From Acidimicrobiia bacterium (lineage in GTDB: Bacteria > Actinomycetota > Acidimicrobiia > IMCC26256 > JAOSJM01), in NCBI GenBank assembly GCA_027494165.1, contig JAOSJM010000005.1, positions 1 through 64,000 on the forward strand: 64,000 bases of DNA, given 5' to 3'. The translations under genes were made by a program, and so were the position numbers. The notes under the pieces are model-generated. The model was not told the DNA's origin. It made no database searches and saw only the letters and a list, made by a program, of their open reading frames with translations. Positions 6,481-23,557 of the stretch are shown piece after piece; position 1 is the stretch's first letter; each line of letters starts with the position of its first letter.

Positions 6481-7780
6481 TGACCGCGATCCACTTGGCC
6501 AGGAACTTCTCGTTGTAGGTCTCGCGGACCTCCGCCCACTCCGGTGCGCTCAGGTAGGAGGCGCTCGGGAAGAAGTACCACGCCCCGGCGGCATGGCGGC
6601 CCGGTGGCGCCTGGCTCCGGTCCCACAGGCTGTTGACCCACGTGCCGCCACCGGGTTCGGGGAGTCGGCCCGTGTACGCGTCACGGATGTTGCGGATCGT
6701 GTCGTCGGGGCCGTCGAAGCCGACCACGGTGTGGTAGCAGCGGTCGATCTCGGGATCCCATCGGGCCGACCGGTACGCCGGCGCGTCGTACAGGCAGAAC
6801 ATCGGGCTGGCCACCGTGTGGCTGGGCCCGTAGCGGAAGGCGTTCGCCCGGCGCGCCCACGCCGGGCTCAGGTGCTCTTCGCCCACCAGGTCCAGCAGGG
6901 TCTGCTTCACGTCCGCGTTGGAGGCCACCAGGCGCTCCGCCCGGAGCTCGCACCCCCGGGCCACCACGCCGACCGCCCGGTCGTCCTCGAGGACGATCCG
7001 CTCGACGGCCGTGTTCTCGAGGAGCTCGACCCCCTCGCGGTAGCACGCCTGGGTGAGCACCTTGGCGATGGTGTGGGTGCCGCCGACGGGGAGCTTCCAG
7101 TTGCCCGTGGTCCACATCATGAAGGTCAGGAACCCGAAGCCCAGCCCCGAGGTGTCGACGGGCAGACCGAACTCCACCGCGTCCTGGTAGAGGAGGGTGC
7201 GCATCTCCGGGCTCTCGAACAGCTCGTCGATGACGACCTTGGCGGTCTTGGCCGCGAAGTCGTTGGTGATGCCGAGGTCGCCGTAGAGACCCTCGAGGGC
7301 CCCGGACTGCCCCTCGACGAAGGCCGGGTCGGGAGGGTTGAAGAAGCCCACGGCGAAGAGCTGCTCCATGCGCTGGGACCGGCGCTTGAGCTCGACGTAC
7401 AGGTCGGCGTCGGACCTCGAGTAGCGGGCGATGCTCGCGTGGGTCCGCTCGAGCAGGTCCGGGCGGTGCAGGATGATCGGGGGCCGGCCGTCGGCGAACG
7501 CGATGCCGTGCTGGGCCTCGGGCATCACCGTGCGCAGCCCGAGGTCCTCGAGACCGAAGTCGGCGATGACGGGCATCAGGTCGATGAACGCCATGTAGTT
7601 GGCGTGCATGTTGTGACGGAAGCCGGGCAGCACCGGCTCCTCGGTGTTCGCGCCACCACCCTCCTCGTGGCGCCGCTCCACGACCACGGTCGAGAGCCCG
7701 GCTCGGGCCAGATAGCACGCGAGGACGAGTCCGTTGTGGCCCGCGCCGACGATGACGGCGTCGTAGGTCCGGGTCTCCAC
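6404..7780 (-). pseudogene. PYROXD2/CrtI-like FAD oxidoreductase, 3' end lost at the junction
   Basis: The protein starts with a Rossmann FAD-binding motif (VIVGAGHNGLVLACYLARAG at residues 8 to 27), followed by ERRHEEGGGANTE, as in phytoene-desaturase-like and PYROXD2-like oxidoreductases that oxidise hydrophobic substrates. The GTG start has GGAGGG upstream. Homology is clear to ETYNEKFLAKW, near position 6,485; then the frame enters AT-rich DNA, reads unrelated residues and stops at 6,404. The longer family member at 55,654-57,438 has about 120 further residues after the equivalent point, including the C-terminal FAD-binding part (LYLCNQTSHPGG), so this copy cannot be complete. A palindromic operator lies 68 bases upstream of the start. 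Confidence 0.8.
6414..6432. repeat. Perfect AT-rich inverted repeat next to the junction
   Basis: The arms ATATCTAT and ATAGATAT are separated by TGG. It lies about 50 bases before the point where base composition changes. Confidence 0.5.
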
Positions 7781-7905: not shown

Positions 7906-8844
7906 TCAGGTCCGGCGGCCGGTGCCCCGGGCGGCCCCGAACCGCGCGGCCCGGAGGAGCGTCGGGGTCCAGATGTCCTGGTGCTCGCCCCAGGCCTCCA
8001 CCCCGTCGAAGGACCATCGAGTGAGGCTCATCCAGGCGAACGTGCCCGGGTTGGCCTGGAACGCCAGGTGGTTGACGCAGCGGCCGGCCGCCTCGAGGCT
8101 GCGGCCCTCGACGTCCTCGACCACGACCTCGACGCGGACCGGGCGTCCGCGATCGTCCCGCTCGGCCACCCGCCGACGCCCCGACGTGAGCCGGGCGAAG
8201 TGCCCGTCCCTGACCAGGTACCCGGCGACCGCGAGGTCCTCGTCCCCCGCGAACATCGACATGGCGTGGAAGGCGTGGCCGGCCGAGGCGGACGCGTAGC
8301 AGTAGCCGGCCCGCAAACCGGTCGTGTCGGGCCGGTGGCTCCACGAGCGGTCCCGCATGGCCAGGCAGTCCACGACGAGCTCCTCCCCGTGGAGGCGGAG
8401 GGTCCCGGTGACGTGACCGGGCTGGTCGAGGTGGCCGCGCTCGGGGGTGGCAAGCGGGGCGTGGGGCGGGAACAGACCCTCGAAGTGCAGGTCGAGCTCC
8501 ACCTCGTCGCCGTCGGCGTAGCGCAACCGGTAGCGCCGCAGCGGCTCGAGGCACTCGTACGAGAGGCCGTCCGGCAACGACAGCTCCGTGAGGTCGTGCG
8601 AGGGCATGGGCAGGTGCCACAGGCTTCGCGCGTAGGGGACCGCCCAGGGCTCGTCGGCCGTGTCGTCCCAGAGGAAGACCCCGCTCGCGCACACGCCCAG
8701 GTTCGGGCGGAAGAAGGGGTAGAGGGCCCCCGACAGCCGCCGCTGCGGGACCCAGAAACTGAACCAGGAGGTCTCCGTCCACCACGGGTCCGCGTCGGGG
8801 GGCGGGTGGAAGCGGTCGTCGGCGGCGGAGAGGGCGGGACTCAT
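7906..8844 (-). CDS. CrtC/AttH-like beta-rich protein (DUF7064/7065-type), 312 residues
   Basis: The protein is strand-rich with repeated W, G and D residues and carries AMRDRSWSHRP near residue 170, equivalent to the GARDHSWG motif of two larger proteins in this locus. It looks like the lipocalin-type fold of hydroxyneurosporene synthase (CrtC)/AttH relatives that bind hydrophobic molecules; recent databases place such proteins in DUF7064/DUF7065, which I recall but cannot verify here. There is no signal peptide. Its ATG overlaps the stop of the TetR gene upstream (ATGA), so the two are probably translationally coupled. The FAD oxidoreductase follows after 125 bases. Substrate and activity are unknown. 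Confidence 0.6.
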   Translation of the reverse strand: MSPALSAADDRFHPPPDADPWWTETSWFSFWVPQRRLSGALYPFFRPNLGVCASGVFLWDDTADEPWAVPYARSLWHLPMPSHDLTELSLPDGLSYECLEPLRRYRLRYADGDEVELDLHFEGLFPPHAPLATPERGHLDQPGHVTGTLRLHGEELVVDCLAMRDRSWSHRPDTTGLRAGYCYASASAGHAFHAMSMFAGDEDLAVAGYLVRDGHFARLTSGRRRVAERDDRGRPVRVEVVVEDVEGRSLEAAGRCVNHLAFQANPGTFAWMSLTRWSFDGVEAWGEHQDIWTPTLLRAARFGAARGTGRRT

Positions 8845-9485
8845 GACGTCCGGGCGCGGAGCAGGGTCCCCTCGACCAGCCGGCGGAACGCGGCGGTCGT
8901 CTCGGCGTGGGCGCTGAGGTCCTCGACGAAGCCGCCGAAGAGCGCGATGCCCGTCGTCGTGGCCATGAGCATGTCGGCGACGGCCGCGTCGGTGACGTCG
9001 GGCGCGACCTCCCCACGCTCGCGACCCTCCCGGGCGATCTCCTCGAAGAAGCGGAGGGTCTCGAGGAGCGGCCCGGTGGCCAGGTCCTGGAAGTCCTCGT
9101 GGCGACTGATCTCCATCGGGGATGTCGAGACGAACCTGGCCATGGAGCTGTCCTCACGGTGCAGAGCGACGGCCGCGTCGAGGAGCGAGCCGACCTTCTC
9201 GACCACGGTCATGTCGTCGCGCAGCGCGGCCCGGAACCGCTGGAGCACGGTGGCCTGGGTCTCGATCGCCACCGCCCGGAACAGGTCCTGCTTGGACTCG
9301 AAGTAGTGGTAGATGGCCCCGCTGGTGATGCCCGCGCGGCGGGCGATCACCTGGTTCGACGTCTTGTCGTAGCCGTAGCGACCGAAGCAGTCGCGCGCGG
9401 CCCGGATGATCCGCTCGCGTGTCTCGGCGCTCTCCGACGCCGGCGGTCGACCCAGCCGGCGTCGCGCGCCCGCTGACCTCGCCAT
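8841..9485 (-). CDS. TetR/AcrR family transcriptional regulator
   Basis: Residues about 20 to 66 form the TetR DNA-binding domain: TRERIIRAARDCFGRYGYDK, then TSNQVIARRAGITSGAIYHY and FESKQDLF. The remaining 150 residues are a helical ligand-binding domain of typical size (214 residues in all). Such proteins repress neighbouring operons until a small ligand binds. The gene lies inside the locus whose promoters carry the 20-bp palindromes at 7,848 and 14,912, so it is the obvious candidate to bind them (inference). The start ATG was chosen because the basic N-terminal tail MARSAGARRRLGRPPA is typical; no strong ribosome-binding site is evident. Confidence 0.85.
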   Translation of the reverse strand: MARSAGARRRLGRPPASESAETRERIIRAARDCFGRYGYDKTSNQVIARRAGITSGAIYHYFESKQDLFRAVAIETQATVLQRFRAALRDDMTVVEKVGSLLDAAVALHREDSSMARFVSTSPMEISRHEDFQDLATGPLLETLRFFEEIAREGRERGEVAPDVTDAAVADMLMATTTGIALFGGFVEDLSAHAETTAAFRRLVEGTLLRARTS

Positions 9486-9570: not shown

Positions 9571-10624
9571 TCACCGGGGACCACCCGACCCACCGGGGAG
9601 GACGTCCTCGGGGAACACGATGCGCTCGTCGACGATCCGGGCCAGGCGGCTCTGGCGCACGGCGATGCCCCCGGCCAGGTACACGCCGAGGAGCTCCTCG
9701 GTGTTGTCGGGCATCCACTCGCAGTAGTTCCAACTCCTCGCCGTCTCCTTCCCCCCCTCGCTGCGCGACGTCGAGACCACCGGACCGAACGTGTGCGCCG
9801 GCCAGTCGGCGCAGGTGTCCTGCTCCAGGTGGACCACCTGGTCCCCCACCTCCAGGCGCGTCCGCCACACCGTCCCCCGATCGTCATAGGTCGTCTCGGT
9901 CACCCCCACCCGATGCGCCTCGCTACGGCCCCCCACGATCAGGTGCGACGCCGCGAACCCCGTCTCCCCCGCCCCTTCCACACGAACCCCCGTCCAGCTC
10001 CCCGTCCACGTACTCCACCAGCCACATCGACCACTGCTTCTCCAACCTCCGGATCAACGGGAGCTGGAAGTACAGGCGACCCGGGTGGCTGTAGCTCCAG
10101 TCCAGGAAGCAGAACCCCTCCACCGGGTCCCCGTCCACCTCACCGGTCGCCCGGCCGATCTGGCTCCGGTGCTGGATCGGATGCTCGATCCCCTCCTGCT
10201 CGGGAACCCAGAACGTGCACGCCGACCCCCACCTGCTCCACGTGCAGGCGGAACCGGCCCCCGCGTCCGACCAGTCGAACCAGCCCTCCGCCACGTCCAT
10301 CCGCACGTGCTCCCCCACGAAGTGCACCGCCCCCGCCGACTCCGAGTACTCGTAGGCCTCGACCTGGTCGATGGGCAGCTCGGGGTAGAGCTCGGGAGAG
10401 AACTCCGACAGGCTCCCGCGGCTCAGGTCCATGAACATGTAGGTGTGGGCCATGCCGACCGCCAGCTCGTCGAAGCCGCGCATCCCGTGGTAGCGGCGGC
10501 CCGACGCGCCGGTGAGCACCGCCCCCGGCCACATCCCCGCCAGCACGTAGTCCTCCCGCGGGGAGTACCCCCGGCGGTACTCGTCCAGGGTCGGCTCCTC
10601 CAACCACACGTCGTAGCGGATCAT
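9571..10624 (-). CDS. Unrecognised protein of the locus, read in two frames (frameshift)
   Basis: The N-terminal part (MIRYDVWLEEPTLDEYRRGY to FQLPLIRRLEKQWSMWLVEY) is read from 10,624 and the C-terminal part (GFAASHLIVGGRSEAHRVGV to VRQSRLARIVDERIVFPEDV) from about 9,980 in another frame, so there is at least one indel near 9,981. A second pair of compensating shifts may exist near 10,240-10,255. Together they give about 350 residues, strand-rich and tryptophan- and tyrosine-rich, without membrane segments. I do not recognise the family; it may be a divergent relative of the CrtC/AttH-like neighbours. It sits between the small helical protein and TetR on the same strand. Confidence 0.5.
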
Positions 10625-10707
10625 CGGTTCTCCCCGGGCTCGGGCCCGGCGGCCACCCGCCGCCGGGCGCGTTTACGGACGTGCTGCCGGTCGGCTCCCC
10701 TCACGGG

Positions 10708-11208
10708 TCATCGGCGCTCCCCGGTGAAGGCCTCGACCACGAAGGGCATCTCGCGATCGAGGTGGCGGGCGAGGTAGGCGCGCAGGACGCCGAGGGCCAG
10801 GCCCCTCGGGTCGTCGCCGCCCGGCCGGGCCCCACCCGTGTGGAGCGCCCGCAGGGTCCGGTCGACGACCGCGCGCAGGGCGCTCGCCTCCCCGTCGAGG
10901 CCCGCGAGGGTGGGATGCTCGCCGGGCTCCCGCCAGGTCCGGGTGAGCACCGTGTCGATCTCTCCGACGATCTCGGCGCCCTCGGCCTCCCGCAGGAGGT
11001 CCGCGACCTCGGCGAGGGAGCCACGGAGGTCGTGGAGCTCCTCGGCCAGCACGGGACCTTCGCGCTCGAGCCGCACGAGCACGTGCCGCAGGAGGTTCGA
11101 GACCGTCAGCGCCAGGCTCCGGGCGTACGGCTCGGCCACCGCGGGAAGGACCTCCTCGTCGAGGGTCTGGATGGCGCTGCGGAGCACCTCGTCGGCCCGG
11201 GGGCGCAT
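10708..11208 (-). CDS. Small helical protein of the three-part set, copy 1 (166 residues)
   Basis: The product is almost all alpha helix. It shares clear patterns with the protein at 17,180-17,680: both start with a helix containing LDE.V.PAV and ARS, have R.EREG/E.EG followed by VL and DLR, then WRE.G..PT and DR.LRALH, and end in RE.PF/PMF. The pair are therefore paralogues. The C-terminal extension of the kinase-fold protein at 13,483-14,859 looks like the same domain fused on. The ATG lies one base after the stop of the preceding kinase-like gene, so the two are coupled. I do not recognise a named family; a partner or regulatory subunit of the kinase-fold proteins is a reasonable guess. 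Confidence 0.6.
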   Translation of the reverse strand: MRPRADEVLRSAIQTLDEEVLPAVAEPYARSLALTVSNLLRHVLVRLEREGPVLAEELHDLRGSLAEVADLLREAEGAEIVGEIDTVLTRTWREPGEHPTLAGLDGEASALRAVVDRTLRALHTGGARPGGDDPRGLALGVLRAYLARHLDREMPFVVEAFTGERR

Positions 11209-11209
11209 C

Positions 11210-12298
11210 TCACCCTGCTCCTGACGCAGCCACCAGCGCCGACGGCGACGTGACGATGCCCGTCCCCACCGCCAGGACGTACTGGGCCCAGGAGAAGACC
11301 TCGGTCGAGACCCACGCCAGGCGGGCCGACCGGTCGTGCCCACGAACCAGCGGTACCGCGGCGTGGTGCGAGAGCACCGCGGTCTCGAAGGCGGTGAGCA
11401 GCTGGTAGAAGGCGATCCGCTCGTGGGTGACCGGGACGCCTCCGACCTCCTCGTAGAAGGCGAGGGCCTCGTCCAGGCCCCAGCCCTCGACCCCGGCCCA
11501 CGGGACGTCCACGGTGGGGACCAGACCCGGCACGAGGTCTTGGAGGTGGGCGAAGTCGGACGCCGGATCGCCCAGGCTCGCGAGCTCCCAGTCGCTCATC
11601 GCGACGATCCGGCCGTCGCTGAACACCTCTTCACCGAGACCGTTCGTGCCCTTGAGCAGCGCCACGCACGGGGCGTCACGCGGGACGTGCTCGCGGAGCC
11701 AGTGGACCGCCTCGGTGAGGACGGGGAGGGGCTCGACCCGCAGCCGCTCGAGGGTCCGCTCGAGGCGGTCGATCGCGGCGAGCGCGCACGCCTCCGGACT
11801 CGCGGGGACCTCCATGATCTCCCCGAACCCCAGGGCGTCCCAGTCGAGCGAGTGCACCCTGGCGAGCGCCCGGAGGTGCTCCTTGGACACCGCGACCCGC
11901 AGCTCGTCGAAGCGGGGGTCGGGGTCGGTGAGCCCGGGGATCTCCCAGCTCCCGTCGACCTCGTCGCGGACGTAGAGCTCGCGCCCTCCCGGGAGCGCCT
12001 CGGGATCGTCCTCGTACCACCGGACGGGTGCGATCGGCACCCCGGTCCCGGCCAGACGCCGGTAGACCTCGTACTCGAAGCGCAGCGTCGTGGGGCAGAC
12101 GCTCCCCGAGGAGAGGTCGCGGCGGATCACGAGCCGCTCCTCCCTCTCGCCCTCTCGGGTGAGGGCCCGGACGAACCAGGTCTCGCGCGACACGCCGCGG
12201 GGGAACCGGACCAGGTCGGCCACGACGACCTCCCCGTCGTCGGGCAGTCGCCTCGCCAGGTAGGTCGCCAGGACTTCCCGGTCGAGCGCTGGCACCAT
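11210..12298 (-). CDS. APH-like phosphotransferase-fold protein lacking the HGD motif, copy 1
   Basis: The fold is that of the aminoglycoside phosphotransferase/ACAD10-type family: an N-lobe with LVIRRDLSSGS and FEYEVYRRLAGTGVPIAPV, and a C-lobe with the metal-binding aspartate in AMSDWELASLGDP. In the position of the catalytic loop (normally H-G-D-x4-N) it reads LLKGTNGLGEE, so the catalytic Asp and the metal-binding Asn are replaced. The protein may bind nucleotide or substrate without phosphorylating, or use other residues. It is 362 residues long, which is usual for the family. It lies 9 bases after the CrtC/AttH-like gene and directly before the small helical protein. Confidence 0.75.
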   Translation of the reverse strand: MVPALDREVLATYLARRLPDDGEVVVADLVRFPRGVSRETWFVRALTREGEREERLVIRRDLSSGSVCPTTLRFEYEVYRRLAGTGVPIAPVRWYEDDPEALPGGRELYVRDEVDGSWEIPGLTDPDPRFDELRVAVSKEHLRALARVHSLDWDALGFGEIMEVPASPEACALAAIDRLERTLERLRVEPLPVLTEAVHWLREHVPRDAPCVALLKGTNGLGEEVFSDGRIVAMSDWELASLGDPASDFAHLQDLVPGLVPTVDVPWAGVEGWGLDEALAFYEEVGGVPVTHERIAFYQLLTAFETAVLSHHAAVPLVRGHDRSARLAWVSTEVFSWAQYVLAVGTGIVTSPSALVAASGAG

Positions 12299-12307
12299 CT
12301 CCCCCGC

Positions 12308-13474
12308 CTACTCGAAGCCATAGGGCGCGTAGGGGCCCTCGACGAACATCTCGACGTGCCCGAGCCCCTCGGTGACGGTCCCGTCCGGTCCGGTGGTCCG
12401 GACGCGGACCAGGTGCTCAGTCCCGTTCACGCCCTGGAGGACGAACCCGCCGAGGTCGTAGTCGAACGGTTGGCTCGACACGTCGAGCTCGTCGTACTCC
12501 AGGTACACGCCGGGACCGTGGTAGGTCTGGATCGAGCCGCCGTCGTTCCAGGTGCCCTGGTGGTAGCCGATCTCGAGGGGGAACCACGGTGGGTCGGCGA
12601 GCTCGAGCTGCTGCACCCACTCGCGCCCGTGCTCGTCGGCGAGGCGGACGGTCCCCCCGGCGAGGGCACGGGTCCCCGGGAGGAACGCCAGCTCGTGACT
12701 CCCCGAGACGAGGCGGACCCGCGTGCCGAAGCCGTGGTCGATCCCACCCTCGAAGGGGGTGCCGAACATGTCGTTCATCACCACCTGCTCGCCGTCCTCG
12801 TTCTCGTGGAGCTGGTAGAAGCCGCTGCGGGTCGGGTCGGCGAACACGGTCCACAACCTCAGGGCCCGCCGCGCCGCGGGGGGATCGGCGGGCGGCAGCC
12901 ACCGCTGGTGGCCCCCGAACGGCGGCCGCTCGCTGTAGAGGCCCCAGGAGTGGTCGCGGGCGCCGTACCAGCGGGGCGGGCCGCCCACGTCGAACCGCCG
13001 GCCTTCGAGCTCGATCCACCCCCGGGCGGTCCCGGCCTGGACGTAGCGGGTCTGGTCCGTGGTCCGCCGCCCGCGGGTGAGGGAGAGGTGATGGGCCTCC
13101 TCGTGGGCGTCGGCGAGGCCCAGCCAGTGCAGATCGAAGCGCAGGGCCGAGTCGTTCTCCCCCAGCGCGACGTGGACGTCGTGGAACGGCTCGACGAACT
13201 CGTAGCGGAGGGGGCCGATGGCCGTGTCGCAGTCGGGTCGCCACACCCGGCTGAGCCGGACCGTGTACTGCCGCCCGTCGAGGCAGACCGCCGCGTAGCC
13301 TCCGAGGACGTCGGAGTTGGGGCTCACCCGCATCCCCGTGAAGAGGAAGCAGCGCGCCTCGGCGCTGAAGACGCCGAAGTAGTAGCCGTCGTCCCAGTTG
13401 TAGTCGGTGACCGGGATCTCGCTGAACGGGTACGGCGACTGGTGGACCGGGTACTCGTCGTAGCGGGTGAGCAC
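12308..13474 (-). CDS. CrtC/AttH-like beta-rich protein with GARDHSWG motif, copy 1 (388 residues)
   Basis: The GTG start is supported by GGAGG five bases upstream. The sequence is dominated by beta strands and aromatic residues and contains WYGARDHSWGLYSERPP near residue 170 and FDLHWLGLADAHEEAHHLSL near residue 115. The same two signatures occur in the 371-residue protein at 14,982-16,097 (FDLHWEGALPPTEEAHHLDV and WFGARDHSWGVRRG). This spacing and composition fit the two-lipocalin-domain fold of CrtC/AttH relatives, which handle hydrophobic substrates. There is no signal peptide, so it acts in the cytoplasm. It stands between two kinase-fold genes with gaps of under 10 bases, as part of one operon. 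Activity is not known. Confidence 0.65.
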   Translation of the reverse strand: MLTRYDEYPVHQSPYPFSEIPVTDYNWDDGYYFGVFSAEARCFLFTGMRVSPNSDVLGGYAAVCLDGRQYTVRLSRVWRPDCDTAIGPLRYEFVEPFHDVHVALGENDSALRFDLHWLGLADAHEEAHHLSLTRGRRTTDQTRYVQAGTARGWIELEGRRFDVGGPPRWYGARDHSWGLYSERPPFGGHQRWLPPADPPAARRALRLWTVFADPTRSGFYQLHENEDGEQVVMNDMFGTPFEGGIDHGFGTRVRLVSGSHELAFLPGTRALAGGTVRLADEHGREWVQQLELADPPWFPLEIGYHQGTWNDGGSIQTYHGPGVYLEYDELDVSSQPFDYDLGGFVLQGVNGTEHLVRVRTTGPDGTVTEGLGHVEMFVEGPYAPYGFE

Positions 13475-13482
13475 GGCGCCTC

Positions 13483-14859
13483 CTAGGTGCCGACGGGGTC
13501 CACCCGCTTGGCCAGGTAGGGCGCGACGGCGGGCCACAGCGCGCCCGTACGGCCGGCGTGCCGGACGAAGAAGGCGGCGAGCTCGGCGTCGCGTTCGGGA
13601 CCGGCCTCCGCCACGACGGCGTCGAGCTGGGCCAGTCCGGCCGTGACGCTGTCGGGTCGGTGCCCCAGGACCGTCGCCAGGTCGTCCCGCCCCGCCTCCT
13701 CGACGGCCGGGCCGAGGACGTCGTCGGCCTGGAGGTGGTTGAGCATCACCGCCATGCCCATGGCCCGCCGCGCGGCCGCGGGATCCCCGGCCACGGCCGG
13801 GAGGATCGCGGTCGTGAGGTCCCCCATGAGGAGCTCGAGGACCTCCGACCGGTCGCGATCGGGGGTCGGCGTGGGGTCGGGGTCGGTCACGTCCTGACGC
13901 GGCGCGCCCACCAGGTCGGCGAGGACCTCGGCCAGCCACTTCTGCACCGCCACGACGAGGAAGAGGTAGGTGATCCCGGGCATGGTGTGCTCGGTCCGGC
14001 CGTCGAGACCGGCGAGAGACGCGACGAGCCATCGCGTCAGCACGACGGGCTGGTAGTAGCGGATTCGCCCGGGGTCGAGGGGGGCACCGACCAGCTCGGC
14101 GTAGCGGCGGAGGCGTGCGTCGACGTCGCCGAACCGCCCCTCGAAGAGGAGGTTGGCCCGCAGCGCGAAGAAGGCGAGGTCGTCCATCGGGTCACCGAGG
14201 TGGGCCAGCTCCCAGTCGAGGAGCGCGCTCACCCGTCCGTCCCGGTGCAGGAAGTTCCCGGGACCCACGTCGCCCCAGCACAGCACCGTCCGGTCGATCG
14301 AGAGGGGGACGTTGCGGCGCGCCCAGCCCAGCGCGAAGCGCACGATCGGGGCCGGGCGGCGCACGCGCTGCTCGAAGACGCGCTCCCAGAGGTCGAGGTC
14401 GCCGAGCACCGCGTCCCGCGGCGTCGGGGACCGGGGGAAGCCAGGCAGGTCGAGGGCCGCGGGGTCGACGCGGTGCAGCACCGCCAGCTCCTCGACGAAG
14501 CTCGCCGCCACGCGATCCCGCTCGTCGACGTCGGCGATGGCGTCGAAGTCGTCGGAGCCCTCGACCCGCTCGGTGAGCATGGCCTGCCCGTCCGGGGAGA
14601 GCGCGACCAGCCGGGGAACGGCGACCCCGGTGCCGGCCAGGGCCCGGTACACGGTCGCCTCGCGCTCGAGCGTGAGCTCGGTCCCCGTGAACGGCCCGTC
14701 GCCCGAGTCCCGTCGCAGGACCAGACCCAGCCGCTCCCCGCCCGGACGCTCGACGTCGAGGAGCCAGGTGGCCCGGGAGCCACCCTGGGCGGTCCGCTGC
14801 AGGCCGGCGACGGTGCCCCCGGAGACCTCCTCCACCCAGTCGCGATCCGCCTGGTCCAT
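13483..14859 (-). CDS. APH-like phosphotransferase with intact catalytic loop and extra C-terminal helical domain
   Basis: The first 340 residues form a phosphotransferase (APH/ACAD10-type) domain with VLCWGDVGPGNFLHRDG, where G-D and N of the catalytic loop are kept (Trp replaces His), and ALLDWELAHLGDP, the metal-binding Asp. The last 110 residues (LLMGDLTTAILPAVAGDPAA onward) form a helical domain resembling the stand-alone small helical proteins of this locus, giving 458 residues against the usual 340 to 360. It would phosphorylate a hydroxyl group on a small molecule. It is the first gene of the minus-strand operon; the operator at 14,912 lies 53 bases upstream. Confidence 0.75.
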   Translation of the reverse strand: MDQADRDWVEEVSGGTVAGLQRTAQGGSRATWLLDVERPGGERLGLVLRRDSGDGPFTGTELTLEREATVYRALAGTGVAVPRLVALSPDGQAMLTERVEGSDDFDAIADVDERDRVAASFVEELAVLHRVDPAALDLPGFPRSPTPRDAVLGDLDLWERVFEQRVRRPAPIVRFALGWARRNVPLSIDRTVLCWGDVGPGNFLHRDGRVSALLDWELAHLGDPMDDLAFFALRANLLFEGRFGDVDARLRRYAELVGAPLDPGRIRYYQPVVLTRWLVASLAGLDGRTEHTMPGITYLFLVVAVQKWLAEVLADLVGAPRQDVTDPDPTPTPDRDRSEVLELLMGDLTTAILPAVAGDPAAARRAMGMAVMLNHLQADDVLGPAVEEAGRDDLATVLGHRPDSVTAGLAQLDAVVAEAGPERDAELAAFFVRHAGRTGALWPAVAPYLAKRVDPVGT

Positions 14860-14911
14860 CCCGCCCTCCGTCCCGGGGTCCCCGCGGCCGCAGCGGCCTG
14901 CGGTCGACTGG

Positions 14912-14931
14912 CATATTAACGGTTCAATATG
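14912..14931. promoter_or_regulatory. Palindromic operator, copy 2 (probable TetR site)
   Basis: The sequence CATATTAACGGTTCAATATG lies in the middle of the 122-bp divergent intergenic region, so one bound repressor could control both the minus-strand operon and the plus-strand operon. It differs from the site at 7,848-7,867 at only two positions. Confidence 0.7.
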
Positions 14932-14981
14932 CTTCGGGGAAGCGACCCGGGCCGTGGTGACCCGGGTGGGAGGAGTGGGCC

Positions 14982-16097
14982 GTGCTCAGCCACCTCGACG
15001 AGACCCTGCGCCACCAGGTGGCGGCCACGTTCTGCGAGGTGGGCCCCAGCGACCACCGCTTCTTCGACCGCCTGTGGTTCTGCGCCTACCACCCCGAGGG
15101 CGACGTGGCGCTCATCACCGGGATGGGCTGCTACACGAACATGAACGTCCTCGACGGCTTCGCGGCCGTCTCGCACCGGGGGCGCCAGCACAACCTCCGC
15201 CTCTCCCGCTGCCTGCGGCCCCGGATCGACGACCTGGCGGTGGGCCCCCTGCGGGTCGAGGTCCTCGAGCCGCTCCGGGCCCTTCGGCTCGTCCTCGACG
15301 GCGACGCGCCGGGAGGCACCGCCTTCGACCTGCACTGGGAGGGGGCGCTGCCCCCCACCGAGGAAGCCCACCACCTCGACGTGCTCGACGGGCGGCGGGT
15401 CTCGGACTACCGGCGCTTCGACCAGGTCGGGGCCGTCCGGGGGACCCTGCGCGTCGAGGGGGAGACCTTCGACGCCGCCGGGTGGTTCGGGGCCCGCGAC
15501 CACTCGTGGGGCGTGCGGCGCGGCGTCGGTGGGTTCGAGCCCTTCACGGGGTCGCTTCCCCCCGAGGCGGCCGGCTACCTGTTCCTCTGGCTCGCCTTCA
15601 CCACCGACGAGGTCGGCGGGCAGCTCCAGCTGCACGAAGACGGCGAGGGTCGCCGACGGATGCTCGACGGCGCGCTCACCCGGCTCGACCGGCCCGGCGA
15701 GCCGGTGCGGGTCGTGGACGTCGCGCACGAGCTCGACTTCGTCCCCGGGACGCGCGCCTACCGTCACGCTCGCCTCCGGATCGACACCGAGGACGGCGGC
15801 TCCCACGTCCTCGAGGCCGAGCCGCTCGTGACCGCCTGGGCCTACCTGGGTACCGGCTACGACGGCGGCTTCGACGACGGCCGGGGTCTCGGCGCGTTCC
15901 GGGGCGACCTCGTCGTCGAGCACGACGTCTACGACGTCAGCCACCCCGAGGACGTCGGGCTCCCCGACGGGCGGGTCGTGCGGCCGGTGCACCGCGAGCA
16001 GCCGGTCCGCCTCACCTTCGACGGCCGTCCGGGCCTCGGTCACCTCCCGGTGATCAACGTCGGGCGGATCCGCCGCTACGGCCTCGGCGAGGGCTGA
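14982..16097 (+). CDS. CrtC/AttH-like beta-rich protein with GARDHSWG motif, copy 2 (371 residues)
   Basis: The GTG start follows AGGAG by seven bases. It is a paralogue of the protein at 12,308-13,474: shared signatures include FDLHWEGALPPTEEAHHLDV near residue 115 and GWFGARDHSWGVRRG near residue 168, and both have a repeated TGM..Y.NMNVL/NSDVLGGYAAV region near residue 45. No signal peptide or membrane segment is present. It is the first gene of a three-gene plus-strand operon whose second and third members are a kinase-fold protein and the small helical protein, the same three types found in the divergent operon. Confidence 0.65.
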   Translation: MLSHLDETLRHQVAATFCEVGPSDHRFFDRLWFCAYHPEGDVALITGMGCYTNMNVLDGFAAVSHRGRQHNLRLSRCLRPRIDDLAVGPLRVEVLEPLRALRLVLDGDAPGGTAFDLHWEGALPPTEEAHHLDVLDGRRVSDYRRFDQVGAVRGTLRVEGETFDAAGWFGARDHSWGVRRGVGGFEPFTGSLPPEAAGYLFLWLAFTTDEVGGQLQLHEDGEGRRRMLDGALTRLDRPGEPVRVVDVAHELDFVPGTRAYRHARLRIDTEDGGSHVLEAEPLVTAWAYLGTGYDGGFDDGRGLGAFRGDLVVEHDVYDVSHPEDVGLPDGRVVRPVHREQPVRLTFDGRPGLGHLPVINVGRIRRYGLGEG

Positions 16098-17152
16098 TGG
16101 ACCCCGGCGCCGTCTGCCGCTACCTCACCGAGCGCCTCGGCGCCGGCCCCGTCCTCGTCACGTCGCTGCACCAGACGTTCCCGGGACAGTCGCAGGAGAC
16201 GTGGCTCGTCGATGCGACCGTCGACGGCGAGCCCCGTGGGTTCGTGCTGCGCGGCAACCCACCCGGGGGCGGGATCGTGCCGTTCCCCCTACGACGCGAG
16301 TGGGAGGTCTACCGGCGCCTCACGGGGAGCCCGGTGCCGGTGGCCACGCCGTTGTGGTTCGACGAGGGAGCGTGCGGGCTCTTCGGCGGTCGTCCGTTCT
16401 TCGTGCGCGATCTCGTGCCGGGAAGCACCCACGTCCCCGGGCTCCAGGACGATCCCGCGCTCCGCCGAGCGGTGGCGCACGAGCACGCCCGGGCCCTCGC
16501 GGCCGTGCACACCCTCGACTGGGAGGCCCTCGGGCTCGGCGAGGTGCTCGACCCGCCGACGGGGCCCGCCGACGCCGCCCGCCACGAGGTCGAGACGTGG
16601 TGGCGGATCTTCGACGAGGTCCGCCCCGGACCCATGCCCGTGGTCACCGAGGCCCTGTACTGGCTGCACGACCAGCTCCCGAGGGCGGCTCCCTGCGTCG
16701 CCCTGTTGAAGGGCAACAACGGGCTCGGCGAGGAGATCTGGCGCGACGGGCGCATCGTGGCCCTCAGCGACTGGGAGCTGGCGTCGCTGGGGGACCCCGC
16801 CCAGGACTGGGCCTTCTCGCAGGGGATGTTGGCCCTGGCCGACGCCGAGGAGACGCTGCGGTTCTACGAGTCGGTGGCGGGGTTCACGCTCGTCCGCGAG
16901 AACCTCGCCTTCTACCGGGTGTGGACGGTCGTCAAGGCGTTGTGCTGCGTGACGGCAGGCCTCCGGGGGTTCCTCGACGGGCGCGACCCGCGGGTTGCCC
17001 TGCCGGCGATGGGCTTCGGTGGCGTGAAGGTGATGGAGTCGCTGCTGGCCACGATGGTGACGATGGACCTGGCGGCCGCGGCCGAGCTGGTCGCCGCCCT
17101 CGAGGGGTCCCGCCTCTCGGAACCGGCGGCCGGCGGCGAGGGCCGGGGCTGA
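16097..17152 (+). CDS. APH-like phosphotransferase-fold protein lacking the HGD motif, copy 2
   Basis: The ATG overlaps the stop of the preceding gene (TGATG). The protein (351 residues) is closely related to the one at 11,210-12,298: both read VALLKG(N/T)NGLGEE where active phosphotransferases have H-G-D-x4-N, and both keep SDWELASLGDP, the metal-binding Asp. The N-lobe has GFVLRGNPPGG and REWEVYRRLTGSPVPVATPL. Loss of the catalytic Asp in two independent copies with the same replacement pattern suggests a conserved subfamily rather than decay. Role unknown; a substrate-binding or regulatory pseudo-kinase is the main alternative to an enzyme with a changed mechanism. Confidence 0.75.
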   Translation: MDPGAVCRYLTERLGAGPVLVTSLHQTFPGQSQETWLVDATVDGEPRGFVLRGNPPGGGIVPFPLRREWEVYRRLTGSPVPVATPLWFDEGACGLFGGRPFFVRDLVPGSTHVPGLQDDPALRRAVAHEHARALAAVHTLDWEALGLGEVLDPPTGPADAARHEVETWWRIFDEVRPGPMPVVTEALYWLHDQLPRAAPCVALLKGNNGLGEEIWRDGRIVALSDWELASLGDPAQDWAFSQGMLALADAEETLRFYESVAGFTLVRENLAFYRVWTVVKALCCVTAGLRGFLDGRDPRVALPAMGFGGVKVMESLLATMVTMDLAAAAELVAALEGSRLSEPAAGGEGRG

Positions 17153-17179
17153 TCCCGGCCAGGACCCGGGAGGGAACCC

Positions 17180-17680
17180 ATGGATCCGACGGCACGCCAG
17201 CTTCTCGAGGCGATCCGACGGGCGCTTGACGAGAAGGTGGAGCCGGCCGTCGAAGACCGTTGGGCGCGCAGCTCCCTGCGGAGCATCCGCGTGCTGCTCG
17301 ACCACCTCGCCCAGCGGGTGGAGCTCGAAGGGAGCGTGCTCCACGACGACGTCGCCGATCTGCGGGTCGTCCTCCCCGACCTCGCCGACCTCGTGGTCGG
17401 AGCGCACGCCGAGCCGTGGCCGGCGTGGCGCGCCGACCTGGAGCACGCCCTCGACCACCCCTGGCGGGAATCGGGGGCGTACCCGACGGTCGCGTCGCTG
17501 GCCGCCGAGCGCGAGGCCCTGCGGGACTTGGCCGACCGTGCCCTGCGGGCCCTCCACGGCGCCGACGTCGACCCGGCCGTCCGGGCCGAGGGGCTCGACC
17601 GCCTCGGCACCTACCTGCGCCGCCAGCTCGCCCGCGAGCAGCCCATGTTCCTCCCCGCCTTCCTGGCCCCGAGCTTCTGA
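17180..17680 (+). CDS. Small helical protein of the three-part set, copy 2 (166 residues)
   Basis: The start ATG follows GGGAGGG by six bases. The product has exactly the same length as the minus-strand copy at 10,708-11,208 and the same helix pattern (LLEAIRRALDEKVEPAV, then ARSSLRSIRVLLDHL, WRESGAYPT and LRALHGADVDPAV). No cysteine or histidine cluster is present, so it is unlikely to be a metal enzyme. It closes the plus-strand operon, 27 bases after the kinase-fold gene. Family not recognised. Confidence 0.6.
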   Translation: MDPTARQLLEAIRRALDEKVEPAVEDRWARSSLRSIRVLLDHLAQRVELEGSVLHDDVADLRVVLPDLADLVVGAHAEPWPAWRADLEHALDHPWRESGAYPTVASLAAEREALRDLADRALRALHGADVDPAVRAEGLDRLGTYLRRQLAREQPMFLPAFLAPSF

Positions 17681-19783: not shown

Positions 19784-19857
19784 GCGCCCCTAGCTCAACT
19801 GGCTAGAGCAGCGGACTCTTAATCCGCGGGTTCAGGGTTCGAGTCCCTGGGGGCGTA
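19784..19857 (+). tRNA. tRNA-Lys (anticodon CTT), target of the integrated element
   Basis: Acceptor GCGCCCC/GGGGCGT (G-T at the first pair), anticodon stem GCGGA/TCCGC with loop CTCTTAA, T-loop TTCGAGT. The 3' part from the anticodon stem onward belongs to the attachment core, so the integrated element restores an intact gene. Confidence 0.93.
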
Positions 19858-19859
19858 CC
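19813..19859. repeat. attL core (47 bp), within tRNA-Lys
   Basis: From the anticodon stem of tRNA-Lys to two bases beyond the gene. The identical 47 bases recur at 33,107-33,153; the flanking bases differ on both sides, so the repeat has sharp ends. Confidence 0.9.
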
Positions 19860-19885
19860 GGCGTGACCAGCAGAAACGCCGTGAG

Positions 19886-19919
19886 AGAGGCCCCCGGGAC
19901 GACCGTCTCGGGGGCCTCT
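19886..19919. terminator. Hairpin between tRNA-Lys and the integrase gene
   Basis: The arms AGAGGCCCCCG and CGGGGGCCTCT pair perfectly over 11 bases around a 12-base loop, followed by TT. It can end transcription from both convergent sides. Confidence 0.7.
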
Positions 19920-19944
19920 TGCAAACGGATTGCAAACGAACGGG

Positions 19945-21159
19945 TCAGCGGGCGGCGTCGAGGACCGTCTCGAGAGCGGCGGCGGCCCGGTCGGCCTGAT
20001 GGTCCATGACGTGCTGGTAGGCGCTCATGGTGAACGCCGGGCTGGCGTGGCCGAGCACCGCGGATGCGACCCCGGGATGCACCCCGCCTTCGAGGAGCGC
20101 CGTCGCGTAGGCGTGGCGCAGGTCGTGGAGGCGAACCCCGGCGAGGCCGGCCTTGCGGGCGATGCGGACGAACGCATGACCGTAGGTGCCGGGGTCGACA
20201 GGCTGGCCGTCGCCCCGTTCGACGATCAGGTCGAGATCCGTCCAGTCCTCCCCCGCAGGCGAGGCGACGCCGGGCCTGGGCGGTCCGGTGGGCGCGCAGG
20301 GCATCGACGACGAAGCCGGGGACGGCGACCTCACGTCGGGCTCTCGGGGTCTTCGGTTCGGTGAACCGTGACTCGCCGTCGATGCGCTGCAGCGATCGGG
20401 TGATGCGCAGCCGGGCCCGGTCGGGGTCGAAGTCGGCCCAGCGCAGCCCGAGGATCTCGCCGCGCCGTGCCCCGGTCGTTGCCGACAGCAGCACCGGGAT
20501 CGCCCACTCGTCGTCGACCTTCGCGGCGTCGATCAGGACGAGGATCTGCGCCGCGTCAGGGACCTTCAACTCGGGCCGTTCGATCCGGGGACGCTTGACG
20601 GCCCGGACCGGGTTCGCGGGGATGAGTCCCCATGCGACCGCCTGGTTCAGCGCGGCGCCGAGACAGGCCCGAAGCTGCACGATCGTCGCCGGCTTCCGTC
20701 CGGCCTCACGGGCCGCGTCGAAGCACGCCTGGACATGCGCGGGACGGAGCGCGGTGAGCTGCAAGGTCCCGATCGTCGACCGGACGTAGCCATCGAGCAA
20801 CTGCCGGTACCGGGCGAGCGTCCGGGGTCGCACCCGGGCCCCGTGATGGTCCAACCAGCGGTCCAGGTAGGCGGTGAGGGTGATCTGTTCGGGGAACGGG
20901 TCGCCGCCGGTGTCGAGGCCCCGCAGGTAGACCCGCAGGGCCTCCTCCGCCGCCTTCCGCGTCCGGTAGCCGGACTGCCAGCGTTGCCGCCGTTCCGGAT
21001 GCACCGGTCCGAGCGGACCGCCGCAGCCGCACCGCTCGACGGGGCCCGCCCGGTCGACGAACCGGCGCTTGGCGCACTCCTGGCACCGCTGGCAGGGCTG
21101 GGGGCGACATCAGTCACGAACGCCCAGGAGCGGCCCCGCCGGCGCACATGGCCGATCAC
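19945..21159 (-). CDS. int: Tyrosine-type site-specific integrase (two frameshifts)
   Basis: The catalytic domain has GARRGEILGLRWADF (first Arg), HDLRHAYATALLEGG (H-x-x-R-H) and LGHASPAFTMSAYQHV (His and the Tyr nucleophile), all needed for strand exchange. The SAM-like core-binding domain (LTAYLDRWLDHHGARVRPRT) precedes it. The first 50 residues contain a possible zinc ribbon (CQRCQEC, then ERCGCGGPLGP). The reading frame changes near 21,105 and near 20,270; both sides match the family, so these are probably sequence errors. The GTG start has GAGGAGGAG upstream and overlaps the stop of the preceding gene. It would integrate the element at tRNA-Lys. Confidence 0.88.
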
Positions 21160-21515
21160 GACTCCTCCTCGGCGGCGTCGCGGAGCGTCTGTGCGGTGTC
21201 GGTGATCTTCTGGTCGAAGCCGACCGGGGTGTTGGCCTCGAAGCCCTTGCAGAGCGCCTCCAGACGCTCGACAGCGGCCCACAGGGCATCGGAGCCGCAC
21301 AGGCACCGGAGCGTCTCGGCGATGCCGTCCTGCTGTCCCGTGGGGGCCTCTGTGGCGGCCCGGCCGGCCAGTTCCTCGACCGCGAGCACGACCTCATGGG
21401 CACGGCCGATCGCGTCGGTGATCTTCGGCTCTAGGGCCTCCAGCCCGGCGAGCGCCTCGACAGCCTTGGCGTGGAGCTCGTCGACCTCGGCCCGGTCGAT
21501 CGGGATGGTCTGCAT
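21156..21515 (-). CDS. Hypothetical element protein, 119 residues
   Basis: The protein is helical and acidic (RAEVDELHAKAVEALAGLEA, then ITDAIGRAHEVVLAVEELAG), with one CLCGSDALW segment near the middle. It has a strong ribosome-binding site (GAGGAGGAGG). Its stop overlaps the integrase GTG, so it is coupled to the integrase. The 27-base leader before its ATG is almost identical to that of the next gene upstream. Family not recognised. Confidence 0.6.
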   Translation of the reverse strand: MQTIPIDRAEVDELHAKAVEALAGLEALEPKITDAIGRAHEVVLAVEELAGRAATEAPTGQQDGIAETLRCLCGSDALWAAVERLEALCKGFEANTPVGFDQKITDTAQTLRDAAEEES

Positions 21516-21552
21516 GGTCCTGCCTCCTCCTCGGGGGGAACTCCCGTCTTGG

Positions 21553-21768
21553 TCACCGGCCTTCGGGCGGCAGCTCGAACGGGATAGCGCAGATACGGAC
21601 GACTTGATCGATGGGAAGCGCGGTCTCCTCGGCGAGCAACTCCTCGAACGGCCGCCCATGAAGCCGGGAGACGTCGTTCAGGTTCTGTGCCCCTGGCGTG
21701 CTGTGGATCAGTCGAACGGCCGCGTCGTGGAGCATCGCTTCAGCCGTCCAGTCGTCGTGTTCGTGCAT
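21553..21768 (-). CDS. Hypothetical element protein, 71 residues
   Basis: A short protein with MHEHDDWTAEAMLHDAAVRL at the start and FELPPEGR at the end, and the same strong GAGGAGGAGG leader as the next gene. It is the first gene of the leftward operon that ends with the integrase, immediately downstream of the operator pair at 21,794-21,837. I do not recognise it; its position suits an early regulatory or excision role. Confidence 0.55.
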   Translation of the reverse strand: MHEHDDWTAEAMLHDAAVRLIHSTPGAQNLNDVSRLHGRPFEELLAEETALPIDQVVRICAIPFELPPEGR

Positions 21769-21793
21769 GGTCCTGCCTCCTCCTCGGGGGAAC

Positions 21794-21837
21794 GTCTACG
21801 ATTGTAGACCTCTCGGGCCGGGTCCGTCTACAATCGT
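21794..21837. promoter_or_regulatory. Paired operators between the integrase operon and the AlpA-like gene
   Basis: GTCTACGATTGTAGAC at 21,794-21,809 is a near-perfect 16-bp dyad. GTCTACAATCGT at 21,826-21,837 repeats 12 bases of its complement. They lie in the divergent promoter region, as expected for a phage-type repressor or the AlpA-like protein. Confidence 0.65.
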
Positions 21838-21863
21838 CGTCGTACGGGTAGGCTCCGCTCTCG

Positions 21864-22067
21864 ATGGGAAGGAGGATCGACGTGGACCAGCTCGTCGGTA
21901 GCCATGAGATCGCGCAGCGTCTCGGTCTCTCCCATCCTCAGAGCGTCCACCTGTGGCGCCGCCGGTACCCCGACTTCCCCGAACCGGTCGCGAAGCTCAC
22001 TCAGGGGTTCGTGTGGGACTGGCGGGACGTTCAGCGGTGGGCCCGCAAGACCTCACGGCTCGACTGA
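21864..22067 (+). CDS. AlpA/MerR-like helix-turn-helix protein (excisionase candidate)
   Basis: The 67-residue protein has a winged-helix DNA-binding layout: VGSHEIAQRLGLSHPQSVHL, then WRRRYPDFPEPVAKLTQGFV and WDWRDVQRWARK. The final W-x-x-x-D-V-x-x-W pattern is typical of AlpA and excisionase proteins. These either activate integrase expression or bend DNA during excision. The ATG lies only 27 bases after the second operator half. It is transcribed away from the integrase operon. Confidence 0.7.
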   Translation: MGRRIDVDQLVGSHEIAQRLGLSHPQSVHLWRRRYPDFPEPVAKLTQGFVWDWRDVQRWARKTSRLD

Positions 22068-22080
22068 TCCCGAACCGGCA

Positions 22081-23529
22081 TCAGAACTTGCCTCCGGGCC
22101 GGTACTCGGTGGTGGGATCGTAGGTGGGGGCAGGGGGTGCGATCATCCGGGTCGGACGACGGCCGGGGGTCCAACGGTTGGTGCGGACCGGCCGGTAGGC
22201 GCGTGTCGCGGTGGTCACCACGACGATGCTGTCCCCCATGCCGATTGTGTCGTGGAAGCCGGGGGTGAGGTCCTGTTCGCCTTCGAGACTGTCGGTGATA
22301 CCGAGGTCGTCGATGAGGTCGATCTCGTTCCAGGTGCTGATCCCCGGGTCGGTGATGCCGACATCGTCGGTGATGATGCGTTCGTGGGCGACCGACCCGA
22401 TGGTGTAGGTGACGACGAGCTCGGCGGCAGAGGCGGGAGCTTGGTCGTAGGTGTAGGCGTGGATGGCGTCGTCGGCGACGCCGGTGCCGCGGTTGCGGTG
22501 CGCGATGACAACGGCGTGGCCGGAGGCCCATCCGGCCCGGTTGACGATCTCCTGGATGATCGTGGCGATGTTCGGTGAGGTGCGCCGGTCGAAGGTGGCC
22601 CATCCGGTGGGGTCCCAGTTGACCGTCGCGGTGGTGAGGGGACGGGAGGTGTAGTCGGAGAGGCTGGTCGGCGCCGCGGGGTCGTCCTGGGCGAAGGCGC
22701 GGAGTTCGGTGAACGGGGTGCCGACTTGCTTGGCGACGGGTCGGTAGTAGGCGCTGACGATGGTGGCGCCTTGGGGGATGGTGAGCCCGTCGAAGCGGGC
22801 CCAGGTCTGCCAGTCGCCGACGTTCGCGCTGTCGCGGCCGGTGAGCATGACGGTTTCGGTCGCGGTGTAGTAGCCGGCAGTGTCGATGTAGCCGTCGTCG
22901 GGTGAGCTGGCGACGGTGATGGTCTGCTCGTCGGAGGTAGAGAGCGGCAACGCCGTGTCGGTCTCGACGGCTTGGCCGACCGGGATGGTCTTCCTGGCCG
23001 TGATCGGCTGCGCCGTGTCGGTCTCTACGGCCTGGCCGACCGCGATGGTCTGGGGAGATCCCGTCCCGTCGTCAACCGCGATCTCGTCGAGGTTGAACTG
23101 CTCGCTACCGGCCGACGGGCTGATGTCGACCTTGAGCGTGTAGCTCGCGGCGGTCCCGGGGGATGTGACAGCACCCTCGTACAGCCCGTAGCTGCCGTTG
23201 TTGCAGTTGCCCTGGTCGATGACATCAGAGGAGATCCACGCGCCACCCGACGTGTACCACTCGACGGTGAAGGTGACCCATCGGCTGACGCCGTTACCGC
23301 GGACCGGCAACGAGAAGTCGTACTCCGTCGACGCGTCGCAGTCCTGACGGTCCGCGTACGGCACCGCGAAGGTGAACGGTGACGAGTCGTCGGAGACGAC
23401 CCGTAGCGACTTGCTGCCCGTCCGGGCGTACTCGGCCTCGTTCGAGAGCGTGCATGAACCCCAGGTGTTCGACCATGCCGCGGATGCTCCCTCGTTGTCC
23501 GCGTAGACAGCATCGAGGATGTTCGCCAT
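22081..23529 (-). CDS. Fibre- or adhesin-like virion protein (482 residues)
   Basis: The protein is made of beta-rich segments. The N-terminal 170 residues look like a carbohydrate-binding jelly-roll (SKSLRVVSDDSSPFTFAVPY, then YSLYEG-type strands ending FNLDEIAVDDG). A linker holds two similar units (QTIAVGQAVETDTAQPI and KTIPVGQAVETDTALPL), and a second jelly-roll follows (WQTWARFDGLTIPQGATIVS, GHAVVIAHRNRG). The tail is proline- and arginine-rich. It directly follows the tape-measure gene, the usual place for minor tail or host-recognition proteins. The ATG at 23,529 was chosen because MANILDAVYADNEG opens the first domain. Function is inferred from position and composition. Confidence 0.6.
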   Translation of the reverse strand: MANILDAVYADNEGASAAWSNTWGSCTLSNEAEYARTGSKSLRVVSDDSSPFTFAVPYADRQDCDASTEYDFSLPVRGNGVSRWVTFTVEWYTSGGAWISSDVIDQGNCNNGSYGLYEGAVTSPGTAASYTLKVDISPSAGSEQFNLDEIAVDDGTGSPQTIAVGQAVETDTAQPITARKTIPVGQAVETDTALPLSTSDEQTITVASSPDDGYIDTAGYYTATETVMLTGRDSANVGDWQTWARFDGLTIPQGATIVSAYYRPVAKQVGTPFTELRAFAQDDPAAPTSLSDYTSRPLTTATVNWDPTGWATFDRRTSPNIATIIQEIVNRAGWASGHAVVIAHRNRGTGVADDAIHAYTYDQAPASAAELVVTYTIGSVAHERIITDDVGITDPGISTWNEIDLIDDLGITDSLEGEQDLTPGFHDTIGMGDSIVVVTTATRAYRPVRTNRWTPGRRPTRMIAPPAPTYDPTTEYRPGGKF

Positions 23530-23557
23530 CAGTCGGGCGACGACGGATTGAAGCTCA

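Follow-up and report, generated by a model that had tools for sequence, protein, structure and literature searches.

What does a set of three protein types do when it is present twice, once on each strand, within a single short stretch of a genome? The question is raised by the window analysed here, 64,000 nucleotides of an Acidimicrobiia bacterium (the start of contig 5; the genome comprises 4.4 Mb in 12 contigs and is judged 85.9% complete with 5.2% contamination). The initial annotation, made from the sequence alone, had recognised a repeated group consisting of a CrtC/AttH-like protein, a kinase-fold protein, and a small helical protein, and had regarded both its function and its make-up as undescribed. 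Our answer is that each set probably acts as an ATP-dependent dehydratase whose substrate is a hydrophobic alcohol, probably an isoprenoid or steroid-like one, and in which an LvaAB-like pair of kinase and helical partner would be joined to a lyase resembling 25-phosphosteroid lyase (25-PSL). The three types are called C (lyase-like), K (kinase-fold), and H (small helical) below, and the genes of the two sets are as follows.

K1, 13486-14859, minus strand: APH-type kinase with the loop WGDVGPGN and a fused C-terminal helical domain at about residues 333-458, assigned by profile comparison to the LvaB/DUF6285 superfamily.
C1, 12311-13474, minus strand: Rv3169-family, 25-PSL-like putative phospholyase with the motif GARDHSWG.
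K2, 11213-12298, minus strand: APH-fold protein with the non-canonical loop KGTNGLGEE.
H1, 10711-11208, minus strand: small helical putative kinase partner, LvaB/DUF6285 superfamily.
C4, 14982-16094, plus strand: Rv3169-family, 25-PSL-like putative phospholyase with the motif GARDHSWG.
K3, 16097-17149, plus strand: APH-fold protein with the non-canonical loop KGNNGLGEE.
H2, 17180-17677, plus strand: small helical putative kinase partner, LvaB/DUF6285 superfamily.

On the minus strand the genes run in the order C1-K2-H1 behind the fused kinase K1, and on the plus strand in the order C4-K3-H2, with K1 and C4 divergent across a gap of 122 bases. The gene ends overlap or nearly so, as first described: the gaps K1/C1, C1/K2, and K2/H1 measure 8, 9, and 1 bases, C4 shares one base with K3, and 27 bases lie between K3 and H2. 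Paralogy of the sets had been proposed from the motifs GARDHSWG in C1 and C4, VALLKG-NGLGEE in K2 and K3, and LDE.V.PAV in H1 and H2. All three motifs are present, and the paralogy is borne out by identities of 40% for C1/C4 and 39% for H1/H2 in full-length alignments and of 46% for K2/K3 over 298 residues (BLASTP).

The lyase-like proteins give the clearest indication of the chemistry. C1 and C4 score 225 and 321 bits against NF053593, the NCBIfam model of the Rv3169 family, and thereby pass its curated cut-off of 150; both also match the solved 25-PSL, C1 with E 4.5e-27 and C4, across residues 2-354, with E 1.6e-38. The PDB matches comprise two different 25-PSL sequences with the motif GSRDRSWG, whose Asp is replaced by Asn in entry 9g4c. 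The Asp of GxRDxSWG, which is probably catalytic, is kept in C1, in C4, in a further paralogue of the window (C3, described below), and in the trio lyases at loci L023, L161-L164, and L166. The genome itself contains 15 matches to the Rv3169 family, five of them above the cut-off (loci L016-L024 among them, several beside kinases), which is a marked expansion of these paralogues. The CrtC/AttH-like fold perceived from the sequence in the initial annotation suggests a different direction of reaction, and carotenoid 1,2-hydratases are textbook members of CrtC. On that reading the C proteins would be hydratases or isomerases, the set would run from alkene to alcohol, and the kinases would act elsewhere. 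We consider this distinctly improbable, as the nearest relative of known structure is a phosphosteroid lyase, an identification that also explains the kinase neighbour at once. The Pfam model CrtC (PF07143) found no match in the genome, which carries little weight as the control genomes had none either.

The K proteins all pass the Pfam APH model (PF01636, cut-off 23.2 bits), K1 with 88.7, K2 with 42.2, and K3 with 42.6 bits. In the typical loop HGDxxxxN of this fold, the Asp is the base and the Asn binds metal. The loop of K1, WGDVGPGN, is canonical and contains both residues. An AlphaFold2 model of K1 built from 73 sequences reached a predicted local distance difference test score (pLDDT) of 95.1 and a predicted template modelling score (pTM) of 0.94, and the five best PDB chains for this model are those of 3dxp, of the steroid kinase 25-HSK, and of Rv3168. 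Among the best 120 of 340 K1 homologues, 111 have at least 430 residues, a size that fits a fused protein, and the canonical loop is seen in 110 of the 111. Of the six listed K1 homologues that carry an organism name, four are from Acidimicrobiales, in keeping with the class Acidimicrobiia. The Pfam APH match and the automatic names of the homologues would also agree with drug resistance genes that happen to lie beside unrelated lipid genes. This is very hard to believe, since K1 and K3 fall far under the cut-off of every listed resistance family and none is listed for K2, and since the H-kinase pairing is constant and the trio recurs.

K2 and K3 differ sharply at the same loop, where KGTNGLGEE and KGNNGLGEE stand in place of HGDxxxxN, a loss that the initial annotation had not remarked on; the corresponding residues are GD and N in ACAD11, in Rv3168, and in the 25-HSK orthologue. 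The position of D220 of ACAD11 is occupied by Asn, Gln, or Thr in these proteins and the position of N225 by Glu. Among the best 120 of 168 K3 homologues, KG[N/Q][N/S/T]GxxEE is found in 120 and the canonical loop in none, although the ranking of candidates by shared words biases this list to K3's own clade: a canonical sister kinase at L023, 34% identical to K3, is absent from it. Residues K205, G206, G209, E212, and E213, together with the later Asp of DWELA, are invariant in 23 of 23 aligned rows. A midpoint-rooted tree of 43 kinases, in which a few other rows are on long branches, unites all 17 KGxNGxGEE rows in one clade (support 100/98) and places the canonical kinase at L023 as sister to them (99/95); this fits a single origin of the loop followed by conservation. 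The clade is rare, being present only in G000 and G028 among 148 genomes of the class. At E <= 1e-70 none was found in the class of G149 (148 genomes) or in its phylum (395 genomes), a scan that scored 14 and 5 candidates per genome without a positive control and thus indicates rarity at most. A plasmid search with K3 (E <= 1e-20) gave one distant record only. The replaced loop is undescribed in the open-access literature searched, and a literature search for an APH-type pseudokinase retrieved only an unrelated oomycete paper.

It is therefore a serious possibility, if one we place somewhat below an even chance, that neither K2 nor K3 is catalytic. As pseudokinases they would combine with H in a scaffold that keeps the lipid or its phosphoester in place for the lyase, and the phosphorylation would fall to K1 or to a different canonical kinase. 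The base Asp and the metal Asn are indeed both replaced in K2, in K3, and in all of the homologues just counted, and the canonical K1 heads the minus-strand run and diverges from C4 at close range. On the other hand, the replacement motif is invariant, which suggests chemistry rather than decay. Moreover, a trio in G028 with the loop KGTNGLGEE shows no canonical kinase in 19.5 kb of retrieved sequence, with the remainder of the genome searched only to E 1e-40. A bolder and more doubtful idea is that the KGxNGxGEE proteins are rewired but working kinases whose catalytic carboxylate now sits at the metal position of the loop instead of the base position. They would phosphorylate a sterol-like alcohol under the gating of the LvaB-like protein and would pass the unstable phosphoester straight to the lyase within a three-protein complex.

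The helical proteins could be placed by comparison of profiles. H1 and H2 pass the cut-off of no Pfam model, and PF19802 (DUF6285) matches neither of them, nor K1, at E <= 0.1. H2 is predicted to be a helical bundle (pLDDT 83.7), and the best PDB match of the H model in Foldseek had an E value of 0.41, which gave no name from the fold. The first search with H returned four proteins, with the window's H2 among them. A later profile of ten H sequences, compared by hhalign with DUF6285 plus LvaB, gave a probability of 91.7% (92.1% with the two swapped), and H against the extra domain of K1 gave 93.0% and that domain against DUF6285 plus LvaB 95.2%; none of 200 column permutations was as good in any of the three comparisons. 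An earlier six-sequence H profile had matched DUF6285 alone only weakly (36%, or 70% swapped), with none of 100 permutations as good. By these profile comparisons, H and the extra domain of K1 are assigned to one superfamily with DUF6285 and LvaB, and the initial description of K1 as an additional kinase carrying a fused helical domain was correct.

The pairing of H with kinases is constant. Over 198 genomes of the class, the ten-sequence profile gave 29 hits in 22 genomes (E <= 0.01), four of them from the window's own genome and several more from sequences used to build the profile; DUF6285 proteins are included among the hits (best E 2.4e-6). An APH-type kinase is located beside or inside the frame of all 29 (within 140 bases, same strand). 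For 27 of them this was established by scoring with a kinase-domain profile, six of these being in the same open frame as the kinase, while L172 and L193, which a position filter had dropped, lie 45 and 126 bases from theirs. Of 100 genomes of the class, 31 have DUF6285 itself, and an APH-type kinase is present in 29 of the 30 loci fetched (the exception is L147). A DUF6285 query also matches (E 1e-5) a Pseudomonas plasmid gene that sits between a phosphotransferase gene and an acyl-coenzyme A (CoA) dehydrogenase gene and is annotated 'lvaB, 4-hydroxypentanoyl-CoA kinase subunit'. A plasmid of Thermus thermophilus HB8 (L214:1871-4998) has an lva-like set with an added phosphatase, namely an acyl-CoA dehydrogenase, a kinase, DUF6285, and a histidine phosphatase. 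No open-access paper on DUF7064, DUF7065, or DUF6285 was found.

The trio as a whole recurs in other genomes. Wide flanks were fetched for the best kinase matches outside the window's own genome (all three from a survey of the class and the best three of 17 from seven genomes), and K, H, and C occur together in five of these six loci (L161-L164 and L166), although the H of L166 is weak at 27 bits. The sixth, L165, has a kinase and H on a contig that stops 878 bases later. The trio of G028, which belongs to another family of the class, is at L161 and has both the C-K-H order of the window and the loop KGTNGLGEE. The earlier view that the three products belong together is upheld by an independent genome with the same order and closely spaced genes, by the repeated occurrence of the trio, and by the fusion of a helical domain to a kinase. 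In the window's own genome, L023 is a further set, with a lyase, an unnamed gene, H, and a canonical kinase; L024 is a weaker one (lyase 59 bits, H 18 bits, and a kinase), and L020 and L021 have fused kinases beside matches to the lyase profile. The unnamed gene of L023 (L023:8292-9041), between the lyase and H, encodes a 250-residue protein with no Pfam match.

Two known systems come close to the proposed module. The first is the dehydration of steroids, in which 25-HSK phosphorylates the tertiary C25 alcohol and elimination of the phosphate gives an alkene, amounting to an ATP-dependent dehydration (PMC8449060). In the available text of that paper, no lyase gene was in hand and none was evident near the 25-HSK gene, and in that of a 2024 paper the phosphosteroid lyase was still 'putative' (PMC11061730). 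The name 25-PSL comes from PDB entries, and its source is probably Sterolibacterium, judging from 92% identity to a Sterolibacterium genome. The 25-HSK orthologue of that genome (E 7.8e-248 to PDB 9fsg) has the canonical loop WGDARPGN. The window sets share with this system the lyase motif GxRDxSWG, the APH kinase fold, and a likely sequence of phosphorylation and then phosphate elimination. They differ in that the kinase and lyase genes are apart in Sterolibacterium, as the available text has it (PMC8449060), and in that 25-HSK belongs to another kinase clade and has a canonical loop, unlike the KGxNGxGEE of K2 and K3. In the kinase tree, 25-HSK is on a long branch and groups with three kinases that lie beside close 25-PSL genes. 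A related pair is known in Mycobacterium tuberculosis, where Rv3167c, a neighbouring TetR protein, represses the Rv3168-Rv3169 operon, according to the parts of the report available (PMC5340868). As in the window, an APH kinase adjoins an Rv3169-family gene beside a TetR regulator; unlike K2 and K3, Rv3168 has a canonical loop (LLWGDARVGN) and is near 25-HSK (E 1.9e-74).

The second system is that of LvaAB with LvaC, and of ACAD10/11, in which 4-hydroxyacyl-CoA is phosphorylated and the phosphate then eliminated (PMC6692424 and PMC12440821, from the accessible portions of both). LvaB binds LvaA in a pull-down and growth on levulinate needs LvaB, as the first of these states in citing Rand 2017 (PMC6692424, available portion). 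The phosphorylated intermediate that is then eliminated is common to these systems and to our proposal, and LvaABC shares in addition an APH-type kinase with a small partner of the LvaB superfamily. In LvaABC, elimination is instead carried out by an acyl-CoA dehydrogenase on a CoA thioester, the LvaA loop HRDYRTGN keeps both Asp and Asn, unlike K2 and K3, and H lacks the Pfam match to DUF6285. The window sets might nevertheless act on CoA-bound hydroxy acids in the manner of LvaABC, with the lyase in place of LvaC. The placement of the helical partner in the LvaB superfamily favours this, as do the acyl-CoA ligase or CoA-transferase genes near the trios of L161 and L162. We think it unlikely, given that the one lyase relative characterised by name acts on a free steroid phosphoester and that the two window sets yielded neither an acyl-CoA dehydrogenase nor a ligase gene; a search for an LvaC-type acyl-CoA dehydrogenase was negative for all genes called at 6.4-17.7 kb. 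The assertion that the make-up of the set was undescribed needs division: a kinase with a phosphosteroid lyase and a kinase with LvaB have each been described, as separate chemistries, and the unexpected feature, which we would have foreseen from neither system, is the invariant loop that replaces the usual one in K2 and K3.

Under the dehydratase proposal, the kinase and its LvaB-like helical partner would phosphorylate a lipid hydroxyl, and the 25-PSL-like lyase would then eliminate the phosphate to leave a carbon-carbon double bond. K2 and K3 might themselves phosphorylate through the rearranged site, in which the base Asp has become Asn or Thr and the Asn five residues on has become Glu, or they might be non-catalytic holders of the substrate with the chemistry left to a canonical kinase, for example K1. 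For these two proteins the step is the least certain of the proposal. The activity of K3 appears to be its weakest link because replacement of the base Asp abolished kinase activity in ACAD10/11. The initial annotation had suggested a hydrophobic alcohol oxidised by a flavin adenine dinucleotide (FAD) enzyme encoded nearby. A hydrophobic alcohol is likely, as the nearest solved relatives of the lyase and of the K1 fold act on 25-phospho and 25-hydroxy steroids; its oxidation is not supported, as the predicted chemistry is phosphorylation and elimination and the FAD gene is cut at about 6495. We also infer a physical complex of the three products and the use of several paralogous sets for different alcohols.

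Several results weigh against this proposal. Identity to 25-PSL is low (27% for C1 and 34% for C4). Among the best 80 of at least 507 confirmed relatives of 25-PSL, five have an APH-type kinase in the flanks that were retrieved, a count unchanged when the kinase profile includes 25-HSK, and none has an H-like gene; 44 of these 80 loci exceed 14 kb and the other 36 are shortened by contig ends. The close 25-PSL clade is on these counts organised unlike the trio. K1, K2, and K3 are outside the 25-HSK clade in the kinase tree, and 25-HSK was not among the listed matches of phmmer with K2 or K3. When ten kinase loci were scanned with flanks of about 1.5 kb (three of the wide-flank loci included), two had all three genes, one a kinase and H, one a kinase and DUF6285, and one a kinase and a lyase, while five had neither H nor lyase, distant kinases often being alone. 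The expectation that the three families would be neighbours elsewhere holds for the closest kinases, while the more distant APH kinases often lack both neighbours. In ACAD11, N225 hydrogen-bonds the base Asp D220, and in ACAD10/11 changing the base Asp to Ala abolishes kinase activity (PMC12440821, available text), which counts against catalysis by K2 and K3. Lastly, the reaction, and with it substrate and activity, is inferred by us from these comparisons. As 25-HSK is outside the clade of the trio kinases and the close 25-PSL loci are arranged otherwise, the window sets represent a related module and not the sterol pathway itself. A family of ATP-dependent dehydratases for lipid alcohols, expanded in this genome, is the most economical reading.

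LvaAB-type kinases and steroid phospholyases, whose chemistries are known but separate, would be joined here in one recurring module, and this offers a likely role for DUF6285-like helical proteins and for clustered Rv3169-family genes. It also names a clade of the kinase fold in which another invariant motif replaces the catalytic loop, so that phosphate transfer without the base Asp becomes testable. If the chemistry is true, the module would be an oxygen-independent route from lipid alcohol to alkene, useful in the breakdown of sterols or isoprenoids.

The minus-strand set is followed by further genes in the window.

Frame-broken gene, 9574-10624, minus strand: between H1 and the TetR gene, outside the set.
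TetR-type regulator, 8844-9485, minus strand: Pfam TetR_N 65 bits; its stop overlaps the start of C3.
C3, 7909-8844, minus strand: lyase-family paralogue with the motif AMRDRSWS, downstream of the minus-strand set in the same direction.
FAD enzyme of the CrtI/CrtO type, 6500-7780, minus strand: interrupted at about 6495, where DNA of lower guanine-plus-cytosine (GC) content starts.

C3 scores 51.8 bits against NF053593, under the cut-off of 150, and passes the cut-off of DUF7064. The initial annotation had counted the span from 9571 as part of the set, and this does not hold: 9571-10624 is occupied by the frame-broken gene, whose pieces (9926-10624 and 9574-10053, with a frame shift at about 10050) score at most 0.3 bits with the lyase-family profile and match no Pfam model at E <= 0.1. 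It may be an assembly error or a pseudogene.

The first 6500 bases of the window have a GC content of 56-59% in 2-kb windows, compared with mostly 70-75% beyond 8 kb, and the value is 38% for the 100 bases that lead up to the break at about 6495. This region holds broken open reading frames and two RlaP-type matches, the FAD gene is cut at its border, and the region resembles either a chimeric assembly or recently inserted DNA. Beyond the plus-strand set, within 19784-24370 of the window, a phage-type integrase gene (Pfam integrase domains) overlaps a tRNA-Lys gene at 19784-19859 and is followed by long minus-strand open reading frames, which may belong to a prophage.

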